This document shows positions 9,039 to 57,385 of a stretch of DNA of 64,000 nucleotides, one piece after another (within the stretch, counting starts at the first letter, position 1; each line of letters starts with the position of its first letter). The translations under genes were made by a program, and so were the position numbers. The stretch comes from Bacillus rhizoplanae (GTDB lineage Bacteria; Bacillota; Bacilli; Bacillales; Bacillaceae_G). The stretch lies in the NCBI RefSeq assembly GCF_917563915.1, contig NZ_CAKJTI010000001.1, forward strand, positions 350,135 through 414,134. The letters are read 5' to 3'. Under the pieces are notes generated by a model. The model searched no databases. It worked only from the letters and a program-made list of their open reading frames with translations, and was not told the origin of the DNA.

Positions 9039-9191
9039 TAAAGTGAAACTTCCATCAGTCGGGGAGGCTTTATTCCCCGCTGATGGTTAGTTGAACCAAT
9101 CGGGCTCTTATGGGCAGTTATTCCCCATCTATCTTCTTAGCTTTCTCTAAATCTTGAGGTGGGGGCTTACTGCCCGTTAGTGCGGGATAAA
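9039..9191 (-). repeat. bcr1-type repeat, full length, minus orientation
   Basis: This is a complete copy in reverse orientation, bounded by ATAAA (the TTTAT duplication read on the other strand) at 9039-9043 and 9187-9191. It starts one base after the spoIIIE stop codon. Confidence 0.87.
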
Positions 9192-9275: not shown

Positions 9276-9742
9276 ATAAAAATGACAACGCTTACTAGCG
9301 TTGTGTTTCGATGAGAATACGAATGGTTATATATTTTTTTATTTCAACGTTCGATTTTTTTGTTGGATTGTATTGACAGTAATCATATCAAGTGGTACGA
9401 TTACTTCGAAATCAAAATAAACCTCATATAATCTTGGAAATAAGGTCCATAAGTTTCTACCTAGCAACCATAAATTAGCTAGACTATGAGGAAAAAGTGT
9501 AAATACAAGGTGTATCATAACTTTGTCCCTAACTTTTTCAGCATATGAGAAATGTAGGGGTACAAAGTTTTTTTTATAGTTTAAAGAAAGAAAATTTAAC
9601 CTAAAAAAATTATTAGCATTTATTCGACGAATTGCAATTTTCTTATTTTTATCCAGGGGCATCCATGGTATATTAATTGTGGAAAAAAGAGAAAAGAGGT
9701 CTTACATCAGAGGTCGAATAAGTGAAGTGTGAGGGGAGTCTT
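9276..9742. other. Intergenic stretch before the GntR gene
   Basis: After the terminators the region holds no gene I can support. A 107-codon minus-strand frame (9339-9662) has no recognisable domain and no good ribosome binding site at its ATG. Near the GntR gene, two GAGGTC boxes 13 bases apart (9696 and 9709) form a direct repeat that could be an operator. This is weak inference. Confidence 0.4.
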
Positions 9743-40113: not shown

Positions 40114-40242
40114 AGTAAACAAAAGGTAACTCTAAAATCAATCTTCATGGTATTTTTGGGATTTTATTAACATTTACGGTATAGACATAATGAAGTAATA
40201 TATTGAATGAAATGAAGTGAATACATGAAGGATGGACATAAA

Positions 40243-42012
40243 ATGGGAGATTTATTATTGATGATGATTGAACGCGTTGGTTTAATTGTCATTTTAGGAT
40301 TTTTACTTTCACATATTAAGGCGTTCCGTTGGCTGCTGCATAAGCAAGATGGCTATAAAGGTAGCTTTATGTTAATTGGCATATTTTCATTATTTACAAT
40401 TGTAAGCAACTACACAGGGATTGAGATTTCTGGTAATACGATTATGAATGATAACTGGCTGCGGGGCGTCTCTTCTTCTAGTACGATTGCGAATACGCGT
40501 ATTATGGGAATTGGGATTAGCGGGTTACTTGGAGGTCCAATTGTTGGAATAGGAGTAGGATTTATAGCTGGCATTCATCGTTATGTGCTAGGGGGAACGA
40601 CTGCATTAAGCTGTGCAATCTCTTCTATTTTAGCTGGGATTGTGACAGGTTATATTGGCTATTTATATCAAAAACGGAATCGCGTTGTGACCCCTAAGTT
40701 TTCTGCAGTGCTTAGCATCTGTATGGTATCGCTGGAAATGATTATGATTCTTTTCATAGTCGATGACGGCTGGAGTATTGTGAAAACAATTGCACTCCCA
40801 ATGATTATCGTAAATGGTTTTGGAAGTTTTATTCTATTGTCAATGATTCAGTCCATTTTACGACAAGAAGAACATGCGAAGGCATTACAAACGCATAAAG
40901 TATTGCGCATTGCTGATAAAACGCTTCCGTATTTCCGCCAAGGATTAACGGAAGAATCATGTACGCATGTGGCACAAATTATCCACCGCTTTACAGGAAC
41001 AGATGCAGTATCTTTAACAGATACAGAAAAAATATTAGCACATGTTGGATTAGGATCTGATCATCATATTCCTTCTCATAGCTTAATTACTGAATTGTCA
41101 AAAGAGGTGTTAAAGACCGGGAAAATTATGAAAGCAAAGTCGCGCGAAGAGATTAATTGTCAGCATGAAGGGTGTTTATTACAAGCGGCAATCGTGATTC
41201 CGCTCACATCTCGTGGAAAGACCATCGGTACGTTAAAGCTTTATTTTAAAAATCCCAATTCATTAAGCCCCGTAGAGGAAGAGCTGGCAGAAGGATTAGC
41301 AAAAATCTTTTCAACGCAGCTTGAGCTTGGAGAAGCAGAACTGCAAAGTAAATTGTTGCAAGATGCGGAAATAAAGGCGCTGCAAGCACAAATTAACCCT
41401 CATTTTCTTTTTAATGCGATTAATACAGTCTCTGCTTTATGTCGCACAGATGTAGAGAAAGCAAGGAAATTATTGTTACAGCTAAGCGTGTATTTTCGCT
41501 GCAATTTACAAGGTGCAAGGCAGCTTCTCATTCCGTTAGAACAAGAATTGAATCATGTGCATGCGTATTTGTCGTTAGAACAAGCAAGATTTCCGAACAA
41601 ATATGAGGTAAAAATGTACATTGAAGACGAGCTGCATAATATTTTGCTTCCACCGTTTGTGTTGCAACTATTAGTGGAAAATGCTCTTCGTCATGCATTT
41701 CCTAAAAAACAGCCTCTATGCCAAGTTGAAATTCATGTTTATGCCAAGAAAAACAGCGTGCATTTCAAAGTAAAAGATAACGGTCAAGGGATTGAGCCGG
41801 AGCGATTAGAGCGGTTAGGAAAAGCAATTGTATCGTCAAAAAAAGGGACGGGAACAGCATTATATAATATTAATGAACGGTTAATGGGGCTGTTTGGAAA
41901 AGGTACAACGCTTCATATCGTCAGTGAACTGGAAACAGGGACGGAGATTTCCTTCACGATTCCAATTCAAAGAAAAGGAGGCAGCGATATTGAAAATATT
42001 AGTAGTCGATGA
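40243..42012 (+). CDS. LytS/YpdA-type sensor histidine kinase
   Basis: This 589-residue membrane sensor has an N-terminal 5TM-LytS domain (about residues 1-205) and a GAF-like domain (about 215-370). The His_kinase domain has phospho-acceptor QINPHFLFNAINT, and the HATPase domain has LVENALRHAF and DNGQGIEP. The ATG at 40243 is chosen from family start points (MMIERVGLI); an ATG at 40225 is also possible. Its stop overlaps the next gene by 23 bases. Because the neighbour is a YhjX-like transporter, not lrgAB, it more likely plays the YpdA role (sensing pyruvate or a related acid). This is inference from context. Confidence 0.87.
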   Translation: MGDLLLMMIERVGLIVILGFLLSHIKAFRWLLHKQDGYKGSFMLIGIFSLFTIVSNYTGIEISGNTIMNDNWLRGVSSSSTIANTRIMGIGISGLLGGPIVGIGVGFIAGIHRYVLGGTTALSCAISSILAGIVTGYIGYLYQKRNRVVTPKFSAVLSICMVSLEMIMILFIVDDGWSIVKTIALPMIIVNGFGSFILLSMIQSILRQEEHAKALQTHKVLRIADKTLPYFRQGLTEESCTHVAQIIHRFTGTDAVSLTDTEKILAHVGLGSDHHIPSHSLITELSKEVLKTGKIMKAKSREEINCQHEGCLLQAAIVIPLTSRGKTIGTLKLYFKNPNSLSPVEEELAEGLAKIFSTQLELGEAELQSKLLQDAEIKALQAQINPHFLFNAINTVSALCRTDVEKARKLLLQLSVYFRCNLQGARQLLIPLEQELNHVHAYLSLEQARFPNKYEVKMYIEDELHNILLPPFVLQLLVENALRHAFPKKQPLCQVEIHVYAKKNSVHFKVKDNGQGIEPERLERLGKAIVSSKKGTGTALYNINERLMGLFGKGTTLHIVSELETGTEISFTIPIQRKGGSDIENISSR

Positions 42013-42727
42013 TGAAATGTTGGCGCGTGACGAATTAAAATATTTATTATATCGAACGAAAGAGGTCGATATTATTGATGAGGCAGACAGTGTAGAAGAA
42101 GCGTTAGAGAAGTTGATAGAAAGTAAACCGGATCTTGTTTTTTTAGATATTCAGCTGTCGGATGATAATGGATTTGAGATTGCTAATATACTAAAGAAGA
42201 TGAAAAATCCACCTGCTATTGTATTTGCAACGGCCTATGATCAATATGCCATTCAGGCATTTGAAGTAGATGCTTTAGATTATATTTTAAAGCCGTTTGA
42301 CGAAGAGCGCATTGTCCAAGCGATTAAGAAATTTAAAAAACGAAAACAGCATGAAATGGAGGAGAAGCAAGAAGTACATGCGTCAGATGTATCTAGCAGA
42401 ATGAAAAAATTAGCGCTGCCGATTGATGAATCGATTGTATTAGTGAATATAGAAGATATCGTATATGCTGGAGTGTTAGATGGAAAAGTAATTGTGAAAA
42501 CGATTTGTGATACGTATGTGACGTACGATACGCTTGCCATATTAGAAAAGAAATTGCCACAAATGAATTTTCTGCGTGTGCATCGCAGTTTTATCGTAAA
42601 TGTAAATCATATTTCTGAAATCCAGCCGTGGTTTAACTCTACGTATAATTTAATTATGAAAGAGGATTCAAAAGTACCTGTAAGCCGTACCTATGCAAAA
42701 GAATTAAAGAAGCTGCTTCGTATTTAA
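41990..42727 (+). CDS. LytTR-family response regulator
   Basis: This 245-residue regulator has a receiver domain (KILVVDDEMLARDE, phospho-Asp in LVFLDIQLSDDNG, Lys in ALDYILKPF) and a LytTR DNA-binding domain (about residues 145-243). The start is TTG at 41990, placed by AGGAGG 8 bases upstream, inside the end of the kinase gene. The expected target is the transporter gene just downstream. Confidence 0.88.
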   Translation: MKILVVDDEMLARDELKYLLYRTKEVDIIDEADSVEEALEKLIESKPDLVFLDIQLSDDNGFEIANILKKMKNPPAIVFATAYDQYAIQAFEVDALDYILKPFDEERIVQAIKKFKKRKQHEMEEKQEVHASDVSSRMKKLALPIDESIVLVNIEDIVYAGVLDGKVIVKTICDTYVTYDTLAILEKKLPQMNFLRVHRSFIVNVNHISEIQPWFNSTYNLIMKEDSKVPVSRTYAKELKKLLRI

Positions 42728-42740
42728 CAAGCAGCTTTTT
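42710..42740 (+). terminator. Terminator overlapping the end of the regulator gene
   Basis: AAGCTGCTT inside the last codons pairs with AAGCAGCTT after the stop, followed by TTTTT. Confidence 0.8.
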
Positions 42741-42830
42741 GCATTTCATTCTTCTTTTTCTGTAACTGATTTCATATATTTGACGCTCTGTGTTGTAAGT
42801 GCTTACGGAATCGTTTACATCCTATACAAT
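42740..42830 (+). promoter_or_regulatory. Control region of the YhjX-like transporter
   Basis: TGCATTTCAT (42740-42749) matches nine of ten bases of GGCATTTCAT, the repeat bound by E. coli YpdB at yhjX. A weaker CTGATTTCAT lies at 42766-42775. TGTAAGTGCTTACG (42794-42807) is a palindromic cre-like box with two differences from the CcpA consensus. It overlaps the -35 (TTACGG, 42803) of a promoter with -10 TACAAT (42825). The spacing of the two T-rich repeats (26 bases) is not the E. coli spacing. Confidence 0.5.
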
Positions 42831-42864
42831 AAAGGCATCAAATCGAAAGAGGTGGAAGGATGAT

Positions 42865-44067
42865 ATGAAACAATCATCTGTTAATCCATGGCTTGTTGTC
42901 CTCGGTACAGTCATTGTACAAATGGGACTTGGAACGATATATACATGGAGTTTATTCAATCAACCTTTAGTGAGTAAATACGGCTGGAGTCTTAACGCTG
43001 TTGCTATAACTTTCTCAATCACTAGCTTTTCTTTAGCATTTTCAACTTTGTTTGCGGGTAAATTACAAGAGAAATTGGGACTTCGTAAACTTATTATGAT
43101 TTCCGGAGTAGCCTTAGGAATTGGCTTGATGCTTAGTTCGCAAGTTTCCTCATTAGTAATGCTTTATGTACTAGCAGGAGTTGTTGTAGGTTACGCAGAT
43201 GGTACAGCCTATATTACTTCACTATCCAATTTACTAAAGTGGTTTCCAGAGCGTAAAGGTTTAATTGCTGGTATATCTGTCTCCGCATATGGCACAGGTA
43301 GCCTAATTTTTAAATACATTAACGCAAAGTTCATTGATTCAGTTGGTGTATCACAAGCGTTTTTATATTGGGGCCTAATTGTTACAGTTATGATAGTGGT
43401 AGGCGCTTGTCTTATCCATCAAGCCGCTGAACAAGATACAGTTCATGAAACAAAAAGTCGTGACTATACAACAAGAGAAATGCTAGGTACAAAACAAGTT
43501 TATCTGTTATTTATTATGTTATTTACATCATGTATGAGTGGCTTATACTTAATTGGCATGGTAAAGGATATTGGTGTTCAACTCGTAGGGCTTAGCGCAG
43601 CAACAGCAGCTAATGCTGTCGCTATAGTTGCGATCTTTAATACGGTTGGCCGAATCATTTTGGGACCGTTATCAGATAAAATCGGCCGTTTGAAAATTGT
43701 TACTGCAACGTTTGTCGTTATAGCTACGTCTGTCTTTGTACTTAGTTTTGTGGATTTAAATTATGGCATTTATTTAGCCTGTGTAGCAAGTGTTGCTTTT
43801 TGTTTTGGTGGAAATATCACTATTTTTCCAGCCATTGTTGGTGATTTCTTCGGTCTAAAAAATCATAGTAAAAACTACGGAATCGTGTATCAAGGCTTTG
43901 GTTTGGGAGCACTCGCAGGTTCCTTTATCGGTGTAATTCTAGGTGGATTTAAACCAACTTTTATGGTGATTGGCGTACTGTGTGTCGTGTCATTTATCAT
44001 CGCTATTTTCATTCAACCACCTAATCAGCAAAAAGAAAAACAAGAAAATTATCGCAGCGTAGCGTGA
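42865..44067 (+). CDS. MFS transporter of the OFA family, YhjX-like
   Basis: This 400-residue protein has twelve predicted membrane segments. It shares long stretches with E. coli YhjX, such as GTIYTWSLFN, SLAFSTLFAGKLQE, KWFPERKGLI and MSGLYLIGMVKDI. YhjX is induced by the YpdA/YpdB system in response to pyruvate. The neighbouring LytS/LytTR pair makes the same logic likely here. Candidate substrates are pyruvate, oxalate or formate; the sequence does not decide. The ATG at 42865 follows GAGGTGGAAGGATG. Confidence 0.85.
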   Translation: MKQSSVNPWLVVLGTVIVQMGLGTIYTWSLFNQPLVSKYGWSLNAVAITFSITSFSLAFSTLFAGKLQEKLGLRKLIMISGVALGIGLMLSSQVSSLVMLYVLAGVVVGYADGTAYITSLSNLLKWFPERKGLIAGISVSAYGTGSLIFKYINAKFIDSVGVSQAFLYWGLIVTVMIVVGACLIHQAAEQDTVHETKSRDYTTREMLGTKQVYLLFIMLFTSCMSGLYLIGMVKDIGVQLVGLSAATAANAVAIVAIFNTVGRIILGPLSDKIGRLKIVTATFVVIATSVFVLSFVDLNYGIYLACVASVAFCFGGNITIFPAIVGDFFGLKNHSKNYGIVYQGFGLGALAGSFIGVILGGFKPTFMVIGVLCVVSFIIAIFIQPPNQQKEKQENYRSVA

Positions 44068-44517: not shown

Positions 44518-44709
44518 TTGTATATTTTTGGAGTAAACGCTATAATGATAGTGTTAAAGATGGAATCGTGATATGACCTGTTATGAATCTATCATTTTAT
44601 TTACAAATAAATGGATTGGTATTTTAGCAAGATGTGCTAATGAACTACTCCACCATGATGATAGCGTACCTATTAATTCGGTGCGTATATTTTCGTGGTG
44701 GAGTTTTTT
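44518..44709 (+). promoter_or_regulatory. Promoter and terminator-type leader RNA of the formate dehydrogenase gene
   Basis: The promoter is TTGTAT (44518-44523), 17 bases, TATAAT (44541-44546). The leader contains TGGAAT (44561), then TTACAAAT and TGGATTGGTAT. A 6-bp hairpin follows (TTAGCA, 44624-44629, with TGCTAA, 44635-44640). A terminator comes next, ACTCCACCA (44647-44655) with TGGTGGAGT (44696-44704), then seven T residues. TGGA segments upstream can pair with TCCA inside the terminator's left arm and so compete with it. The leader at 55854-56051 has the same parts. This predicts control by premature termination; the signal is unknown. Confidence 0.65.
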
Positions 44710-44733
44710 TATTCTCAAAAAGGGGGAAAGACC

Positions 44734-47673
44734 ATGAACGACAGCATGGTTCATATTACAATTGACGGCAAAGAATATAGTGCTGAGCCCGGTTCAACTA
44801 TATTGGATATCATTAATCAAAACGGGATTGAACATCCACAAATCTGTCACGTGCCTGAAGTGGATCCTATCCAAACGTGTGATACTTGTATTGTAGAAAT
44901 TGATGGAAAACTTGTGCGATCCTGCTCAACAGTAGCAACGAACGGTATGAATATTGAGTTGTCCTCTATTAGTGCGAAGGCAGCACAAACTGAGGCGATG
45001 GACCGCTTATTGGAAAACCATTTACTTTATTGTACGGTCTGTGACAACAATAATGGGAACTGTAAATTGCATAATACGGCAGAATTAATGGAAATTGAGC
45101 ATCAAAAATATCCTTACAAACCAAAAGTAGATGTGAGTGAGGTTGACATGTCACATCCATTTTATCGCTATGACCCTAATCAGTGTATCGCGTGTGGTCA
45201 ATGTGTAGAGGTTTGTCAAAACTTGCAAGTAAATGAAACGTTATCTATTGATTGGGAGGCAGAGCGTCCTCGTGTTATTTGGGATGATGGAGCGGCTATT
45301 AATGATTCTTCATGTGTAAGCTGCGGTCAATGTGTAACTATTTGTCCTTGTAATGCTTTGATGGAAAAATCGATGCTTGGTGAAGCTGGATTTATGACTG
45401 GGCTGAAGCCGGACATTCTTGAGCCGATGGTTGATCTTATAAAAGAAGTTGAACCTGGATACAGCGGTATTTTCGCTATATCAGAAGTAGAAGCTGCCAT
45501 GCGCGAAACTCGTACAAAGAAGACGAAAACAGTATGTACGTTTTGTGGTGTAGGATGCTCATTTGAAGTGTGGACGAAGGGACGTAAAATTCTTAAAGTA
45601 CAACCAACTTCTGAGGCACCAGTTAATGCAATTTCTACTTGCGTAAAAGGGAAATTTGGTTGGGATTTCGTAAATTCTGAAGAACGACTCACTAAGCCTT
45701 TAATTCGTAAACATGGAACATTTGTTGAATCAACTTGGGAAGAAGCGCTTGATTTAGTGGCAAATAAATTAGGATCCATTAAAGAACAATACGGTAAAGG
45801 ATCTGTAGGCTTTATTTCTTCTTCTAAAATTACGAATGAAGACAACTATGTCATTCAAAAATTAGCTCGACAAGTGTTTGAAACAAACAATGTTGATAAC
45901 TGCTCTCGTTATTGTCAATCACCAGCAACAGATGGATTGTTCCGTACAATTGGTATGGGCGGAGATGCGGGAACGATTAAAGATATTGCGCAATCAGGTC
46001 TTGTTATTATCGTTGGTTGTAACCCAACAGAAGGTCACCCGGTATTAGCGACTCGTGTGAAACGTGCGCATAAACTTCACGGTCAAAAATTAATTGTTGC
46101 AGATCTTCGTAAAACCGAAATGGCAGAGCGTTCAGATATCTTTATTAGTCCAAAGCAAGGAACAGACCAAGTATGGTTAATGGCTGTTACGAAATATATG
46201 ATTGACCAAGGTTGGCATGATCAACAGTTCATCGACGAGAATGTAAACTTCTTTGAAGATTTCAAAGATAGTCTTGCAGAGTATACGCTTGAATATGCAG
46301 AAGAGATTACAGGCATTTCAAAAGAAACTCTCGTTCAAATGGCCGAAATGATTCGTGATGCAGATGGTACTTGTATTCTTTGGGGAATGGGGGTAACTCA
46401 AAATACGGGTGGTTCAGATACTTCCGCTGCGATTTCAAATTTACTTCTTGCAACAGGAAATTATCGTCGCCCAGGTGCTGGTGCATATCCGCTTCGAGGT
46501 CATAACAACGTACAAGGTGCTTGTGATATGGGAACTCTCCCAGGCTGGCTTCCAGGATATCAGCACGTTACCGACGATGTAGAACGTGCGAAATTTGAAC
46601 AAGCTTACGGGGTGAAAATTGATAACAAACCAGGTCTTAACAACATTCAAATGCTTCACGCAATTGAAGAAGGAAAAATGAAAGCAATGTATCTTGTTGG
46701 AGAGGATATGGCTCTTGTAGACTCTAACGCAAATCATGTACATGAAGTTCTATCAAGCCTTGATTTCTTTGTCGTTCAAGATGTATTCCTTTCTAAAACT
46801 GCTCAATATGCCGATGTAGTGTTACCAGCGGCGCCATCTCTTGAAAAAGAAGGTACTTTTACAAATACAGAACGTCGTGTACAAAGACTATATCAAGTAC
46901 TTCCTACGCTCGGAGATGCGAAACCAGACTGGTGGATCGTACAAGCGATTGCAAATAAATTAGGTGCAAACTGGAACTATAGTCATCCAAGTGAAATCTT
47001 TGCTGAAATGGCAAGTTTATCGCCACTTTTCGCAAAAGCAAACTATGAAGTGCTTAAAGGTTGGAACAGTTTCCATTGGGGAAGCTTTGACGGAACGAAT
47101 ACGCCGCTTCTTTTCCAAGATGGATTTAACTTCCCAGATAAAAAAGCTCGTTTCGCCATAGCTGACTGGGTACGTCCTGCTGAATTCCCAGAGGAATATG
47201 ATCTTCACATTAATAATGGTCGTATGCTTGAACATTTCCATGAAGGTAACATGACAAATAAATCAACTGGTATTCAAGCTAAAGTGCCTGGTGTCTTCGT
47301 TGAAGTTTCTCCAGAACTTGCACAAGAACGTGGAGTTAAAACTGGTTCGTTAGTGCGCCTTGTTTCTCCTTTTGGAGCACTTAAATTACGTGCGCTTGTA
47401 ACGGATCGTGTAAAAGCAAATGAGCTTTATTTACCGATGAACTCGACGGACAAAGAATCGGCGATTAATTTCTTAACTGGTCCTGCGGTCGATCAACGTA
47501 CGAATACACCTGCATATAAACAAACGAAGGTTCGTATGGAAGTGTTACAAGTAGAAGGTGAAAATCCGATGCCAAAAGCGAATCCACGTAACAAAAAGCG
47601 TCACCCTCAAAATGGGATTGAGGTAAATCGTAAGTGGGCTCGTCCAGGATACGTACACTTAACGGATAACTAG
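44734..47673 (+). CDS. Formate dehydrogenase, molybdenum subunit (YrhE/YjgC-like)
   Basis: This is a cytoplasmic enzyme that oxidises formate to CO2. The 979-residue protein begins with a 2Fe-2S ferredoxin domain (Cys at about 38, 49, 52 and 64) and a HLLYCTVCDNNNGNC cluster site. Two 4Fe-4S motifs follow (CIACGQCVEVC near 150, CVSCGQCVTIC near 193). The bis-MGD dehydrogenase domain starts at CTFCGVGC (about 268). The active-site selenocysteine of some relatives is a cysteine here (SRYCQSP, Cys394). There is no signal peptide. The start follows AGGGGGAAAGACC. It forms a unit with the next gene, as in B. subtilis yrhE-yrhD. Confidence 0.92.
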   Translation: MNDSMVHITIDGKEYSAEPGSTILDIINQNGIEHPQICHVPEVDPIQTCDTCIVEIDGKLVRSCSTVATNGMNIELSSISAKAAQTEAMDRLLENHLLYCTVCDNNNGNCKLHNTAELMEIEHQKYPYKPKVDVSEVDMSHPFYRYDPNQCIACGQCVEVCQNLQVNETLSIDWEAERPRVIWDDGAAINDSSCVSCGQCVTICPCNALMEKSMLGEAGFMTGLKPDILEPMVDLIKEVEPGYSGIFAISEVEAAMRETRTKKTKTVCTFCGVGCSFEVWTKGRKILKVQPTSEAPVNAISTCVKGKFGWDFVNSEERLTKPLIRKHGTFVESTWEEALDLVANKLGSIKEQYGKGSVGFISSSKITNEDNYVIQKLARQVFETNNVDNCSRYCQSPATDGLFRTIGMGGDAGTIKDIAQSGLVIIVGCNPTEGHPVLATRVKRAHKLHGQKLIVADLRKTEMAERSDIFISPKQGTDQVWLMAVTKYMIDQGWHDQQFIDENVNFFEDFKDSLAEYTLEYAEEITGISKETLVQMAEMIRDADGTCILWGMGVTQNTGGSDTSAAISNLLLATGNYRRPGAGAYPLRGHNNVQGACDMGTLPGWLPGYQHVTDDVERAKFEQAYGVKIDNKPGLNNIQMLHAIEEGKMKAMYLVGEDMALVDSNANHVHEVLSSLDFFVVQDVFLSKTAQYADVVLPAAPSLEKEGTFTNTERRVQRLYQVLPTLGDAKPDWWIVQAIANKLGANWNYSHPSEIFAEMASLSPLFAKANYEVLKGWNSFHWGSFDGTNTPLLFQDGFNFPDKKARFAIADWVRPAEFPEEYDLHINNGRMLEHFHEGNMTNKSTGIQAKVPGVFVEVSPELAQERGVKTGSLVRLVSPFGALKLRALVTDRVKANELYLPMNSTDKESAINFLTGPAVDQRTNTPAYKQTKVRMEVLQVEGENPMPKANPRNKKRHPQNGIEVNRKWARPGYVHLTDN

Positions 47674-48352: not shown

Positions 48353-48697
48353 ATGTCAAAAATGGTACATGAATTTAATGATATGATACGAAAGCTTCGA
48401 AAGGATTTGTTCGGTAAAGGGCCGGAACGAATTCATACTGTATTTGCTGAGAATATGGCTATTGCCACACTTTATGGAAATTTGACACCTACTGAGAAAT
48501 TCATTTCGGGAACTATGGATGGTGCGGAAATGGTTCATATGGCTAGAACGAAAATGATTCAGGAGGTTTATGCAGTTAATTCTCGTGAACGTTTGGAGGA
48601 ACTTGTTGGGGCGAAATTAGTTCATCTGTTTTCGGATATGAAAGTGGACGAAGATATTGCAGTTTCAGTGTTTGTCTTTGATAAAAATATAACGTGA
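48353..48697 (+). CDS. DUF2294/MpsC-like protein (YrhF-like)
   Basis: This 114-residue protein belongs to the family first called DUF2294 and now linked to MpsC of the membrane potential/bicarbonate system. A related gene (yrhF) lies beside formate dehydrogenase in B. subtilis. Conserved parts are LRKDLFGKGPERI, ENMAIATLYGNLTPTE and VYAVNSRERLEELVG. It has no membrane segment. Its role with formate dehydrogenase, whose product is CO2, is open. The start follows GGGGAGGAATGAGAGA. Confidence 0.82.
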   Translation: MSKMVHEFNDMIRKLRKDLFGKGPERIHTVFAENMAIATLYGNLTPTEKFISGTMDGAEMVHMARTKMIQEVYAVNSRERLEELVGAKLVHLFSDMKVDEDIAVSVFVFDKNIT

Positions 48698-50637: not shown

Positions 50638-50898
50638 GGAATAAATAATATGTTAGGATGACTTTCAAAACACTATGAAAAAAGGTTATTAGTAGCTTCT
50701 TTTTGTTATAGCAGATAATGCTTGAATATACGAAGTGGAAAGTGTGCAAGTCCTGTAGATTTTCTATTTTATAGTAAAAATGATGATTGATATCTCTGTA
50801 AGAGAAGTGCAGGGAGATTAAAACAGCATTCAAAAATCCTTACTATGTTAAGGGTTTCTTGAAGCTGTTTTTTATTTGAAAAAATGGAGGAATTGGTT
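50638..50898 (+). promoter_or_regulatory. Leader of the formate channel gene with terminal attenuator-like hairpin
   Basis: A stem of about 21 bp lies at 50821-50870 (AAACAGC, TTCAA, AAATCCTTA with TAAGGGTTT, TTGAA, GCTGTTT) and is followed by TTTTTTATTT. Only 22 bases separate it from the start codon, so a promoter cannot fit after it and transcripts must read through. Upstream, CTCTGTA (50794-50800) can pair with TGCAGGG (50808-50814). It looks like an attenuator; no known riboswitch class is recognised. Confidence 0.55.
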
Positions 50899-51681
50899 AT
50901 GGCATTTCATAAACCGGAAAAAATCGCTGAGCTTGTGATTGAAGCCGGTGTTCAAAAGGTAAGGCAATCGCTATCCGCCATGCTTATTCTTGGTTTTTTA
51001 GGAGGAGCATTCATTTCGTTAGGGTTTTTGCTTAATATTCGAGTTCTTGGTAATTTACCGGAGCAATGGGGAAGTCTAGTAAATTTTTTGGGAGGAGCAG
51101 TTTTTCCTATAGGGCTTATGCTCGTTGTCCTGGCAGGAGGAGAATTAATTACGGGAAACATGATGTCAGTGTCTATGGCCCTGTATGCACGAAAAATCTC
51201 ATTGAAAAGTGTGTTAAATAATTGGATTTGGATAACTTTAAGTAATTTTGTTGGTGCACTTTTCGTAGCTTATTTTTTCGGTCATCTTGGAGGATTGACG
51301 GAGGGGGAATATTTAAATAAAACAGTAGAAATAGCCCAAGAGAAATTACATGAACCGTTTGGGAAAACATTAATTTCAGCAATCGGTTGTAACTGGCTTG
51401 TTTGTCTTGCAATTTGGTTGGCTCATGGAACTAACGATTTTGTTGGGAAAATTATCGGAATTTGGATTCCTATTATGACATTTGTGGTAATTGGATTTCA
51501 GCAAGTGGTAGCAAATATGTTTGTAATCTCAGCAGCTATTTTTGCGGGTCACCTTTCGTGGATAGATCTTGCAGAGAATTTTGTTCCTGTTTTTATAGGA
51601 AATGTAATTGGTGGAGCTGGGTTTGTTGGATTTGCTTACTTTTCTTGTTATCAGAAACAAAGCCATATAGAGAAAGAGTAA
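50899..51681 (+). CDS. Formate/nitrite transporter family channel (YrhG-like)
   Basis: This 260-residue FNT-family pentameric channel would carry formate (or nitrite) across the membrane. It has six predicted membrane helices and the family motif GNWLVCLA-type sequence (GCNWLVCLAIWLAHGT, about residues 160-175). Another conserved segment, FPIGLMLVVLAGGELITGN, lies near residue 73. In B. subtilis a related gene (yrhG) lies with the formate dehydrogenase. The ATG at 50899 follows ATGGAGGAATTGGTT. Confidence 0.9.
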   Translation: MAFHKPEKIAELVIEAGVQKVRQSLSAMLILGFLGGAFISLGFLLNIRVLGNLPEQWGSLVNFLGGAVFPIGLMLVVLAGGELITGNMMSVSMALYARKISLKSVLNNWIWITLSNFVGALFVAYFFGHLGGLTEGEYLNKTVEIAQEKLHEPFGKTLISAIGCNWLVCLAIWLAHGTNDFVGKIIGIWIPIMTFVVIGFQQVVANMFVISAAIFAGHLSWIDLAENFVPVFIGNVIGGAGFVGFAYFSCYQKQSHIEKE

Positions 51682-55853: not shown

Positions 55854-56051
55854 TTGTTTGTTATTAAAGTTAACCCTATACTTATGATTATAATAGATGG
55901 AATGGTAATAATGAATTGTTATCATTTTATCACTTTTTATTTATGTTACAAATGGTTGGATTGGTATATTAGTAAGTATTGCTAGTAATCTATTCCACCA
56001 TGAGTACACAAGCCTATTTAATTAGGTTCGGGTACTCATGGTGGTTTTTTT
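55854..56051 (+). promoter_or_regulatory. Second terminator-type leader RNA, upstream of mrp
   Basis: The promoter is TTGTTT (55854-55859), 17 bases, TATACT (55877-55882). The leader repeats the parts of the formate dehydrogenase leader: TGGAAT (55898), ATCATTTTAT, TTACAAAT and TTGGATTGGTAT. The hairpin is TTAGTA (55969-55974) with TGCTAG (55980-55985). A 13-bp perfect terminator stem, CCACCATGAGTAC (55995-56007) with GTACTCATGGTGG (56032-56044), precedes seven T residues. ATTCCA (55992) can pair with TGGAAT and compete with the terminator. Confidence 0.65.
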
Positions 56052-56134: not shown

Positions 56135-56291
56135 TTTATCCCGCATTAATGGGCAGTAAGACCCCCACCTCAAGAATGAGAGAGAAGCGAAGAAGATAGG
56201 TGGGGGATAACTGCTCGTAAAAGCCTGATTGGTTCAACTAACCATCAGCGGGGGATGAAGAAAACCCCCACTGATGGAAGTTTCACTTTAT
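56135..56291 (+). repeat. bcr1-type repeat, best-preserved copy
   Basis: Full-length copy of 157 bp with TTTAT at 56135-56139 and 56287-56291. The internal pairings ACCCCCACCTC/GGTGGGGG and CATCAGCGGGG/CCCCCACTGATG are intact. It splits the second leader RNA from the mrp coding region. Confidence 0.9.
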
Positions 56292-56335: not shown

Positions 56336-57385
56336 ATGCTTACTCATGAACAAATTATGAATGCTCTAAACCATGTTCAAGATCCAGAGTTGCACAAAAG
56401 TATTGTGGAATTAAACATGGTAAGAAATATTCAAATAGATGGTACACAGATTCAACTTGAAGTTGTTTTAACTATTCAAGGTTGTCCTTTAAAGGCAAAA
56501 ATTCAACAAGATATTGAAGACTCTCTTCGAAACATTGGGGCCTCTAAGGTTTCTTTGGCCTTCGGCTCCATGACACCGGAAGAACGAGCTGCATTAACAC
56601 AGACTTTAAAGAAAAACTCTAGAACGGAAACCGGCATGCCTAGTATGCTGCAACCTGATTCAGGGGTACGTTTTATTGTTGTGACAAGTGGAAAAGGTGG
56701 AGTAGGGAAATCAACTGTGACAATTAACCTTGCTACTGCTTTAGCCCGTATGGGGAAAAAGGTTGGGATTTTAGATGCAGATATATATGGATTCAGTATC
56801 CCAGCTATGATGGAAGCTAATCAAAAGCCAACAATGATAGATCAGACAGCGATTCCGGTCGTTAGTCACGGCGTTAAAATCATGTCAATGGGATTTTTTA
56901 CAGAGGGTAATAACCCAGTTATGTGGCGAGGACCAATGCTAAACAAATGGATTCAAAATTTCCTTGCCAACACTCACTGGGGAGAATTAGATTATCTTCT
57001 TCTTGATTTGCCTCCTGGTACAGGAGATGTTGCGATTGATGTGGCTGCGATGATTCCTCATGCGAAGGAAATTATAGTTACTACTCCTCATAATGTAGCT
57101 TCGTTTGTTGCTTCCAGAGTAGGGGTAATGGCAAAGCATACAAAACACGATATTTTAGGTATCGTTGAGAATATGGCATATTATGAGGAACAAGATGGTT
57201 CAAGGAACTATCTCTTTGGGAAAGGTGGCGGCGAAATGTTAGCAGAACAACTGCAAACAGAAGTGATAGCACAAATACCTTTAGCAAAGCCTGAAGAAAA
57301 TAAAGGTTCGTCCGTATATGACGAAGATTCGCTTGTTGGGGAGATGTTTACATCTTTAGCTCAAGATCTTATCTACAAAGGATAA
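56336..57385 (+). CDS. Mrp/NBP35-family ATPase (SalA-like)
   Basis: This 349-residue P-loop ATPase would carry iron-sulfur clusters or act as a regulator of the SalA type. It has an N-terminal MIP18 domain (residues 1-85, VQDPELHKSIVELNM) and the deviant Walker A GKGGVGKST (about 118-126). The region that holds CxxC in many Mrp proteins reads YYEEQDGSRNY and has no cysteines, as in B. subtilis SalA. Its location in the formate dehydrogenase/Moco cluster suggests cluster delivery to the dehydrogenase; this is inference. The group probably has another copy elsewhere. Confidence 0.85.
   Translation: MLTHEQIMNALNHVQDPELHKSIVELNMVRNIQIDGTQIQLEVVLTIQGCPLKAKIQQDIEDSLRNIGASKVSLAFGSMTPEERAALTQTLKKNSRTETGMPSMLQPDSGVRFIVVTSGKGGVGKSTVTINLATALARMGKKVGILDADIYGFSIPAMMEANQKPTMIDQTAIPVVSHGVKIMSMGFFTEGNNPVMWRGPMLNKWIQNFLANTHWGELDYLLLDLPPGTGDVAIDVAAMIPHAKEIIVTTPHNVASFVASRVGVMAKHTKHDILGIVENMAYYEEQDGSRNYLFGKGGGEMLAEQLQTEVIAQIPLAKPEENKGSSVYDEDSLVGEMFTSLAQDLIYKG

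Follow-up and report, generated by a model that had tools for sequence, protein, structure and literature searches.

A conserved transcription attenuator upstream of formate genes in Bacillus rhizoplanae and its relatives, with MpsC (DUF2294) proteins as candidate antiterminators

Background

The 64,000-nt stretch of Bacillus rhizoplanae DNA analysed here (the window) carries similar leaders, each ending in a terminator, ahead of a formate dehydrogenase gene and an iron-sulfur carrier gene. What kind of switch are they, and what operates it? A preliminary description of the sequence gave them the layout of a riboswitch or a protein-bound attenuator and left that choice undecided. We conclude that the leader is an attenuator in which, probably, an adjoining MpsC protein of the YrhF type stabilises an antiterminator hairpin, P3/P2, and so allows inducer-dependent read-through.

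Leader copies in the window

The window holds three copies of the leader, before fdhA (44558-44658), before mrp (55895-56003) and, in diverged form, before focA (about 50732-50876). The preliminary description had located the first two correctly, each with TGGATTGGTAT and a T-run terminator, and had overlooked the third. The features are these:

44541-44546, + strand: promoter of the fdhA leader, -10 box TATAAT (sequence)
44559-44593, + strand: hairpin P1 of the fdhA leader (covariation)
44612-44652, + strand: P3/P2, the antiterminator core of the fdhA leader, 41 nt (56 bits and E = 1e-11 with model R3; nascent-RNA folding)
44648-44710, + strand: intrinsic terminator of the fdhA leader, its 5' arm overlapping the P3 3' strand (folding)
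44734-47673, + strand: fdhA, forC-type formate dehydrogenase, target (TIGR01591, 823.8 bits)
48353-48697, + strand: MpsC/DUF2294 protein of the YrhF type, proposed antiterminator protein (PF10057, E = 2.8e-30; linkage)
50732-50770, + strand: P1 of the diverged leader before focA, followed by its core (about 50784-50827) and terminator (about 50821-50876) (sequence, folding)
50884-51681, + strand: target ORF, a focA-like formate transporter that probably begins at the ATG at 50899
55896-55931, + strand: hairpin P1 of the mrp leader (folding, covariation)
55957-55997, + strand: P3/P2, the antiterminator core of the mrp leader (54.7 bits and E = 2.2e-11 with model R3)
55995-56051, + strand: intrinsic terminator of the mrp leader (folding)
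56336-57385, + strand: mrp/apbC-type iron-sulfur carrier, target (PF10609 and PF01883)

R1 denotes the full-leader model and R3 the core model. R3 gave no match to the diverged focA leader of the window; the same element also lies 5' of focA in locus L001 (15885-15980), and one like it occurs in L329. We take the ORF at 50884-51681 to be FocA from its gene context and general knowledge of the family. The nearest named relative of the window's FdhA, among the matches listed, is that of Gottfriedia solisilvae (88% identical).

Structure and covariation

The leader runs from the promoter through P1, a short AU-rich linker and the 41-nt imperfect hairpin P3/P2 to a terminator with a T-run. P3 pairs TGGATTGGT with ACTAYTCCA, with a U-Y mismatch, and a 3x3 internal loop separates it from P2, TTAGYA/TGCTAA with a 5-nt loop. 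P2 is the 6-bp hairpin with a 5-nt loop first reported as TTAGCA/TGCTAA before fdhA and TTAGTA/TGCTAG before mrp, and both forms are present as described. The difference between them had been offered as compensatory; it is only a wobble, and true compensatory changes are found in relatives. TGGAAT does occur soon after the expected start, but it is the 5' arm of the long hairpin P1, which had been missed. ATCATTTTAT is found in each copy, though at positions that do not correspond; in the mrp copy it lies in the 3' arm of P1. TTACAAAT, proposed as another common element, is not conserved in relatives.

Both leaders fold far better than their dinucleotide shuffles (z-scores -6.34 for fdhA and -6.87 for mrp). 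Across 42 aligned sequences, 94.9% of the cells are paired and 16 of 28 pairs show double changes; the double-changed cells number 101, whereas shuffles give 23.9 and slid controls 20-42. Most of this covariation sits in P1, where 12 of 14 pairs have double changes. For 62 distinct cores picked by hand (alignment A7), P3 and P2 contain 34 double-changed cells against 10.8 in shuffles; the number of pairs with double changes in this set (4 against 3.6) shows no excess, a consequence of the strong conservation of the core. Between alignments A8 and A10, two sequences with indels (L336, L315) were taken out and six others put in; in A8, 89.6% of cells are paired and 7 of 14 pairs show double changes.

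The high conservation of the P3/P2 bases, and the occurrence of P1 as another conserved hairpin in most leaders, would suit a riboswitch, in which the leader would bind a small molecule (formate, bicarbonate or a molybdenum-cofactor intermediate) and MpsC would be a mere regulon neighbour. We consider this unlikely, in part because P1 is dispensable. Several Paenibacillus leaders (L058, L059, L061, L070) lack P1 and keep the core, which rules out P1 as a necessary part; the single imperfect hairpin that remains is sized like a protein site, not like most aptamers.

Antiterminator and terminator

A regular expression found 125 cores, of which two chance matches (L026, L037) were dropped to leave 123 distinct cores. 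An exact TATAAT lies within 140 nt 5' of the core in 107 of them, against about 30 in shuffled sequence. The last four bases of P3 pair into the terminator, by 3-4 nt, in 116 of the 123, and three more, which had scored zero overlap, are judged by eye to be artefacts of segmentation, bringing the count to 119. In the other four, which belong to the B. subtilis group, P3 and the terminator have only one base in common, and the two structures must there exclude each other sterically or by some other route. The layout read from the window is thus conserved in many genomes, and a model search of relatives and their downstream genes found both the P3/P2 hairpin and the TGGA/TCCA pairing preserved. 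Antiterminators of attenuators with intrinsic terminators are recognised by the bases they share with the terminator's 5' arm; the 3' strand of P3 overlaps that arm, and P3 is therefore the antiterminator. An antiterminator formed by TGGA and TCCA segments had been proposed, and this stands with the specification that it is the second TGGA segment that pairs.

The terminator is predicted to be more stable than the core in all 123 distinct cores, which had been selected for a downstream T-run, and the default state is therefore off. While its terminator is still incomplete, the nascent fdhA RNA is predicted to fold into P1 and P3/P2; the nascent fold of the mrp leader differs from this in detail. 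If termination is the default, something must hold the antiterminator. That the leader, as RNA, is a transcription attenuator is well supported.

These facts also bear on two other explanations. The attenuator might be bound by a different or additional protein, such as Hfq, or MpsC might act negatively, favouring termination. According to PMC3574147, the yrhE leader RNA of B. subtilis is enriched 170-fold with Hfq, although the authors report there that many structured leaders are enriched too. It is the antiterminator, rather than the terminator, that the conserved core coincides with, and in silico the terminator needs no help to form; we think such schemes improbable. The terminated leader might instead be a trans-acting small RNA, and a short RNA does accumulate in B. 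subtilis (PMC3574147). This we regard as very improbable, given that the antiterminator is conserved and that the order of promoter, leader and terminator is kept directly before the target, with several different genes in that place.

Comparison with known classes

At the gathering score, no Rfam 15 family matches the leaders in the window and ten related loci, and a search of the fdhA leader at E values up to 10 returned nothing for the leader. The leader is a new attenuator class, absent from Rfam 15, in agreement with the preliminary description, which could name no class that fits. The parts of the literature openly accessible (subscription papers mostly lay outside reach) contained no account of the leader as a regulatory class or of MpsC as a regulator.

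Three known systems resemble the leader and were set aside by domain and Rfam-match tests. The RAT elements read by BglG, LicT and SacY are likewise imperfect hairpins that overlap the 5' arm of a terminator, and the gene for the protein that stabilises them is often close by; the leader antiterminator begins GGATTG, as RAT does. The leader core differs in being 41 nt long with a 6-bp apical stem and in having formate genes as targets, and the linked protein matches PF10057 only, with no BglG-type RNA-binding domain. The RAT-type model (bglG-cis-reg, RF03530) scored 15.8 bits in the fdhA leader, against a gathering score of 80. The Moco riboswitch (which we take to be RF01055) and the moco-II motif also occupy leaders of molybdoenzyme or cofactor genes, but they differ from our leader in size and sequence, and many leader targets have no molybdenum link. 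The Moco model had no match in the window at the gathering score, nor in the fdhA leader at E values up to 10, and the leaders had rightly been called unlike it. ANTAR-domain antitermination (NasR/EutV type) is protein-dependent, as proposed here; it requires an ANTAR protein and a pair of hexaloop hairpins, whereas P2 usually has a 5-nt loop and the partner matches MpsC only, with no ANTAR domain.

Distribution and target genes

Model R1 matched 14 of 14 chosen genomes and 13 of 19 in a further genome sample. Model R2 matched 71 of 397, 10 of 344, 3 of 15 and 84 of 200 genomes in four samples, and R3 matched 15 of 296 Paenibacillales-type genomes and 25 of 250 in a class sample, all 25 of which the order samples had already included. 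Filters were stricter in the large samples, and their counts are therefore lower bounds. Among the 80 loci with the closest FdhA relatives (the best 80 among the matches listed), the core model places the leader before fdhA in 61. In species of the B. subtilis group it precedes the yrhE homolog (L004-L010).

We tallied the first recognised downstream gene at 157 leader places with context (L099 and above, with about twenty further R2 places left out). It was fdhA at 136, a TRIC/Gly_transporter-like membrane protein at nine, MpsC/DUF2294 (then psiE or moaB) at eight and modA, at 1 kb, at one; none was recognised at three. Earlier locus sets add mrp, psiE-mrp and focA. The common theme of the targets is formate. 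A link to molybdenum or iron-sulfur supply, as first suggested, does not hold in this wider gene set, which points to formate, and to bicarbonate for the MpsC paralogs.

A few places lie outside the formate theme: in L149 and L314 the leader precedes a 179-aa ORF accompanied by an EamA-like permease; in L258 it precedes a 142-aa ORF.

Linkage to MpsC proteins

The constant neighbour of the leader is a protein of about 115 aa of the MpsC/DUF2294 family. Among leader-bearing genomes, MpsC is encoded no more than 1.5 kb from a leader in 83 of 84 in one order sample and in 68 of 71 in another (70 of 71 within 15 kb). In the best 80 FdhA loci, MpsC stands within 1 kb upstream of fdhA at 54 of the 61 that have the leader and at none of the 19 that lack it; eight of those 19 have an MpsC gene elsewhere within 10 kb on either side, at 40-63% identity or partial. 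MpsC also adjoins leaders of other genes, at seven of the nine TRIC-type places and at all eight where it is itself the first gene. Fisher values for the association are tiny and overstate the evidence, because the counts ignore kinship. Since MpsC is nearly always beside the leader, it is the likely hand on the switch, and the linkage points to a protein rather than a ligand; it spans several target genes and is rare without the leader, which a riboswitch would not lead one to expect.

MpsC genes are assigned to the YrhF type by score band and position. In the 200-genome sample, five MpsC rows of that score band lie away from R2 matches. G781 and G829 have YrhF and appear leaderless, yet the core was found on inspection. 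L329 has a second YrhF copy before focA, with a leader-like element, in a leader-bearing genome, and the rows of G876 and G864 belong to the MpsC3 group.

The rule that every leader adjoins MpsC is nevertheless untrue. Five of 88 leader places in the same sample have no MpsC within 1.5 kb, and G950, G262 and G002 are without a YrhF-type gene. In G950 the MpsC gene is gone and the core and terminator have decayed; G002 has an intact leader and a 20-aa remnant as the last MpsC sequence in its assembly, and G262 has an intact leader and only distant two-domain MpsC proteins. The retention of the leader in G002 and G262 favours a riboswitch, and because of these three genomes that explanation stays the main rival. 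It also tells against MpsC that a genome's single YrhF-type protein would need to recognise fairly dissimilar cores, such as those of G772 and G780.

Comparison of the predicted MpsC fold with known structures gave no confident match to an RNA-binding protein; the best Foldseek matches were TRAPP-like and designed proteins, and the best with VIA were FtsK motor domains. In many genomes there are also longer MpsC proteins, of about 230-300 aa, that contain the MpsC domain twice. In L145 two MpsC genes in tandem point away from the leader, and downstream there is an EAL-domain-like ORF.

Proposed mechanism

We propose that the unaided nascent RNA would fold the strong intrinsic terminator, stopping transcription before fdhA (or mrp, or focA). 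The P3/P2 hairpin, by using bases of the terminator's 5' arm, would exclude the terminator, and a YrhF-type MpsC protein would bind and stabilise P3/P2 when inducer is present, letting RNA polymerase read through. The inducer would most likely be formate, with bicarbonate for the MpsC paralogs. In the window the MpsC gene is within the fdhA operon, the one it would switch on, so the circuit would have positive feedback. MpsC is a strong candidate for the protein part, specific enough to be put to the test, and we think it rather likely that such proteins act as RNA-binding antiterminators of formate and bicarbonate genes, although the binding to RNA, the positive action and the signal are all inferred.

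Data from B. subtilis fit the MpsC antiterminator model. Its YrhF can be assigned to the MpsC family by synteny in close relatives and a PF10057 match in B. subtilis. Table 2 of PMC3574147 lists a 139-nt 'New sRNA or yrhE leader region', with the highest Hfq enrichment in that table, and a leader had been suggested earlier. yrhF is a reported RoxS target (PMC8216469, PMC10433868), and when RoxS is induced yrhF falls to 0.42 and forC2/forE2 to 0.69 (PMC10433868, Table 1); these effects could reflect direct RoxS action. On ForCE regulation more generally, PMC8808070 states that ResED lowers forCE2 and reports the ForCE enzymes as outside the usual anaerobic or formate control.

If the proposal is right, one more protein family joins the few RNA-binding antiterminators, and bacteria would seem to sense formate and bicarbonate at the RNA level. 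With the leader class and a candidate protein in hand, the regulation of formate oxidation and the function of MpsC can be tested together in B. subtilis 168.

MpsC paralogs and their RNA elements

In a tree of MpsC proteins, MpsC1 (58 sequences) and MpsC3 (19) each form a single clade, and MpsC3 and YrhF fall together in one. Both paralog groups stand before antiterminator/terminator elements distinct from the leader. Twenty-four MpsC1 genes are followed by the bicarbonate transporter gene sbtA (Sbt_1, PF05982). Of these pairs, 20 have a GGGAG...AAACC hairpin, which runs into a terminator in 18, and the element occurs with 6 of 34 MpsC1 genes without sbtA; at one such locus tested, the next gene is NuoL/MpsA-like (PRK08601). 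Thirteen MpsC1 elements are 96.4% paired, with double changes in 10 of 13 pairs and 36 double-changed cells against 10.9. In L390, at about 1945-2090, two tandem GGGAG...AAACC elements precede a NuoL/MpsA-like gene.

The MpsC3 set comprises 17 loci, all in genomes that lack the leader. Upstream of MpsC3, 15 have an oxalate/formate- or lactate-type MFS transporter; downstream, 16 have an FdhF/YdeP-like oxidoreductase, and a conserved GG..GG/CTAACC hairpin with a terminator stands between MpsC3 and the FdhF/YdeP-like gene in 15. The consensus fold of these elements is the apical stem only (7 pairs, 2 with double changes), and the outer helix is visible in single folds only. Two MpsC3-TRIC pairs have an element like that of MpsC3.

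A riboswitch does not predict that MpsC1 and MpsC3 should recur with unlike RNA elements. The MpsC proposal may extend to the whole PF10057 family, as RNA-binding antiterminators that would sense small C1 anions (formate, bicarbonate) and act on at least four unlike hairpin elements, a step we offer more tentatively. The four would be the leaders of fdhA/TRIC/mrp, of focA, of sbtA/MpsA-like genes and of FdhF-like genes. The mpsABC locus of S. aureus, whose MpsC (PF10057) is of the same family as the YrhF type and adjoins bicarbonate-transport genes, is pertinent here. In the part of PMC6689103 available, this MpsC makes no contribution to transport and its function is reported as unknown, an mpsC deletion leaves growth unaffected and a weak terminator lies between mpsAB and mpsC; that part describes no RNA element at mpsABC. 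Were the family-wide reading true, it would give a function to the MpsC of the staphylococcal bicarbonate operon and would imply a C1-anion-responsive RNA switchboard in bacteria.

Other features of the window

A 32-nt sequence occurs twice in the window with 2 mismatches, at 56223-56254 and at 9074-9105 (minus strand), and is possibly a small mobile element; the former copy lies between the mrp leader and the mrp gene, where the sequence is rich in hairpins. A Purine riboswitch lies at 9404-9506 (Rfam, 78.3 bits). The region 40225-44067 encodes a two-component pair, presumably LytS/LytT-like, and after it an MFS transporter of the lactate/oxalate-formate type.
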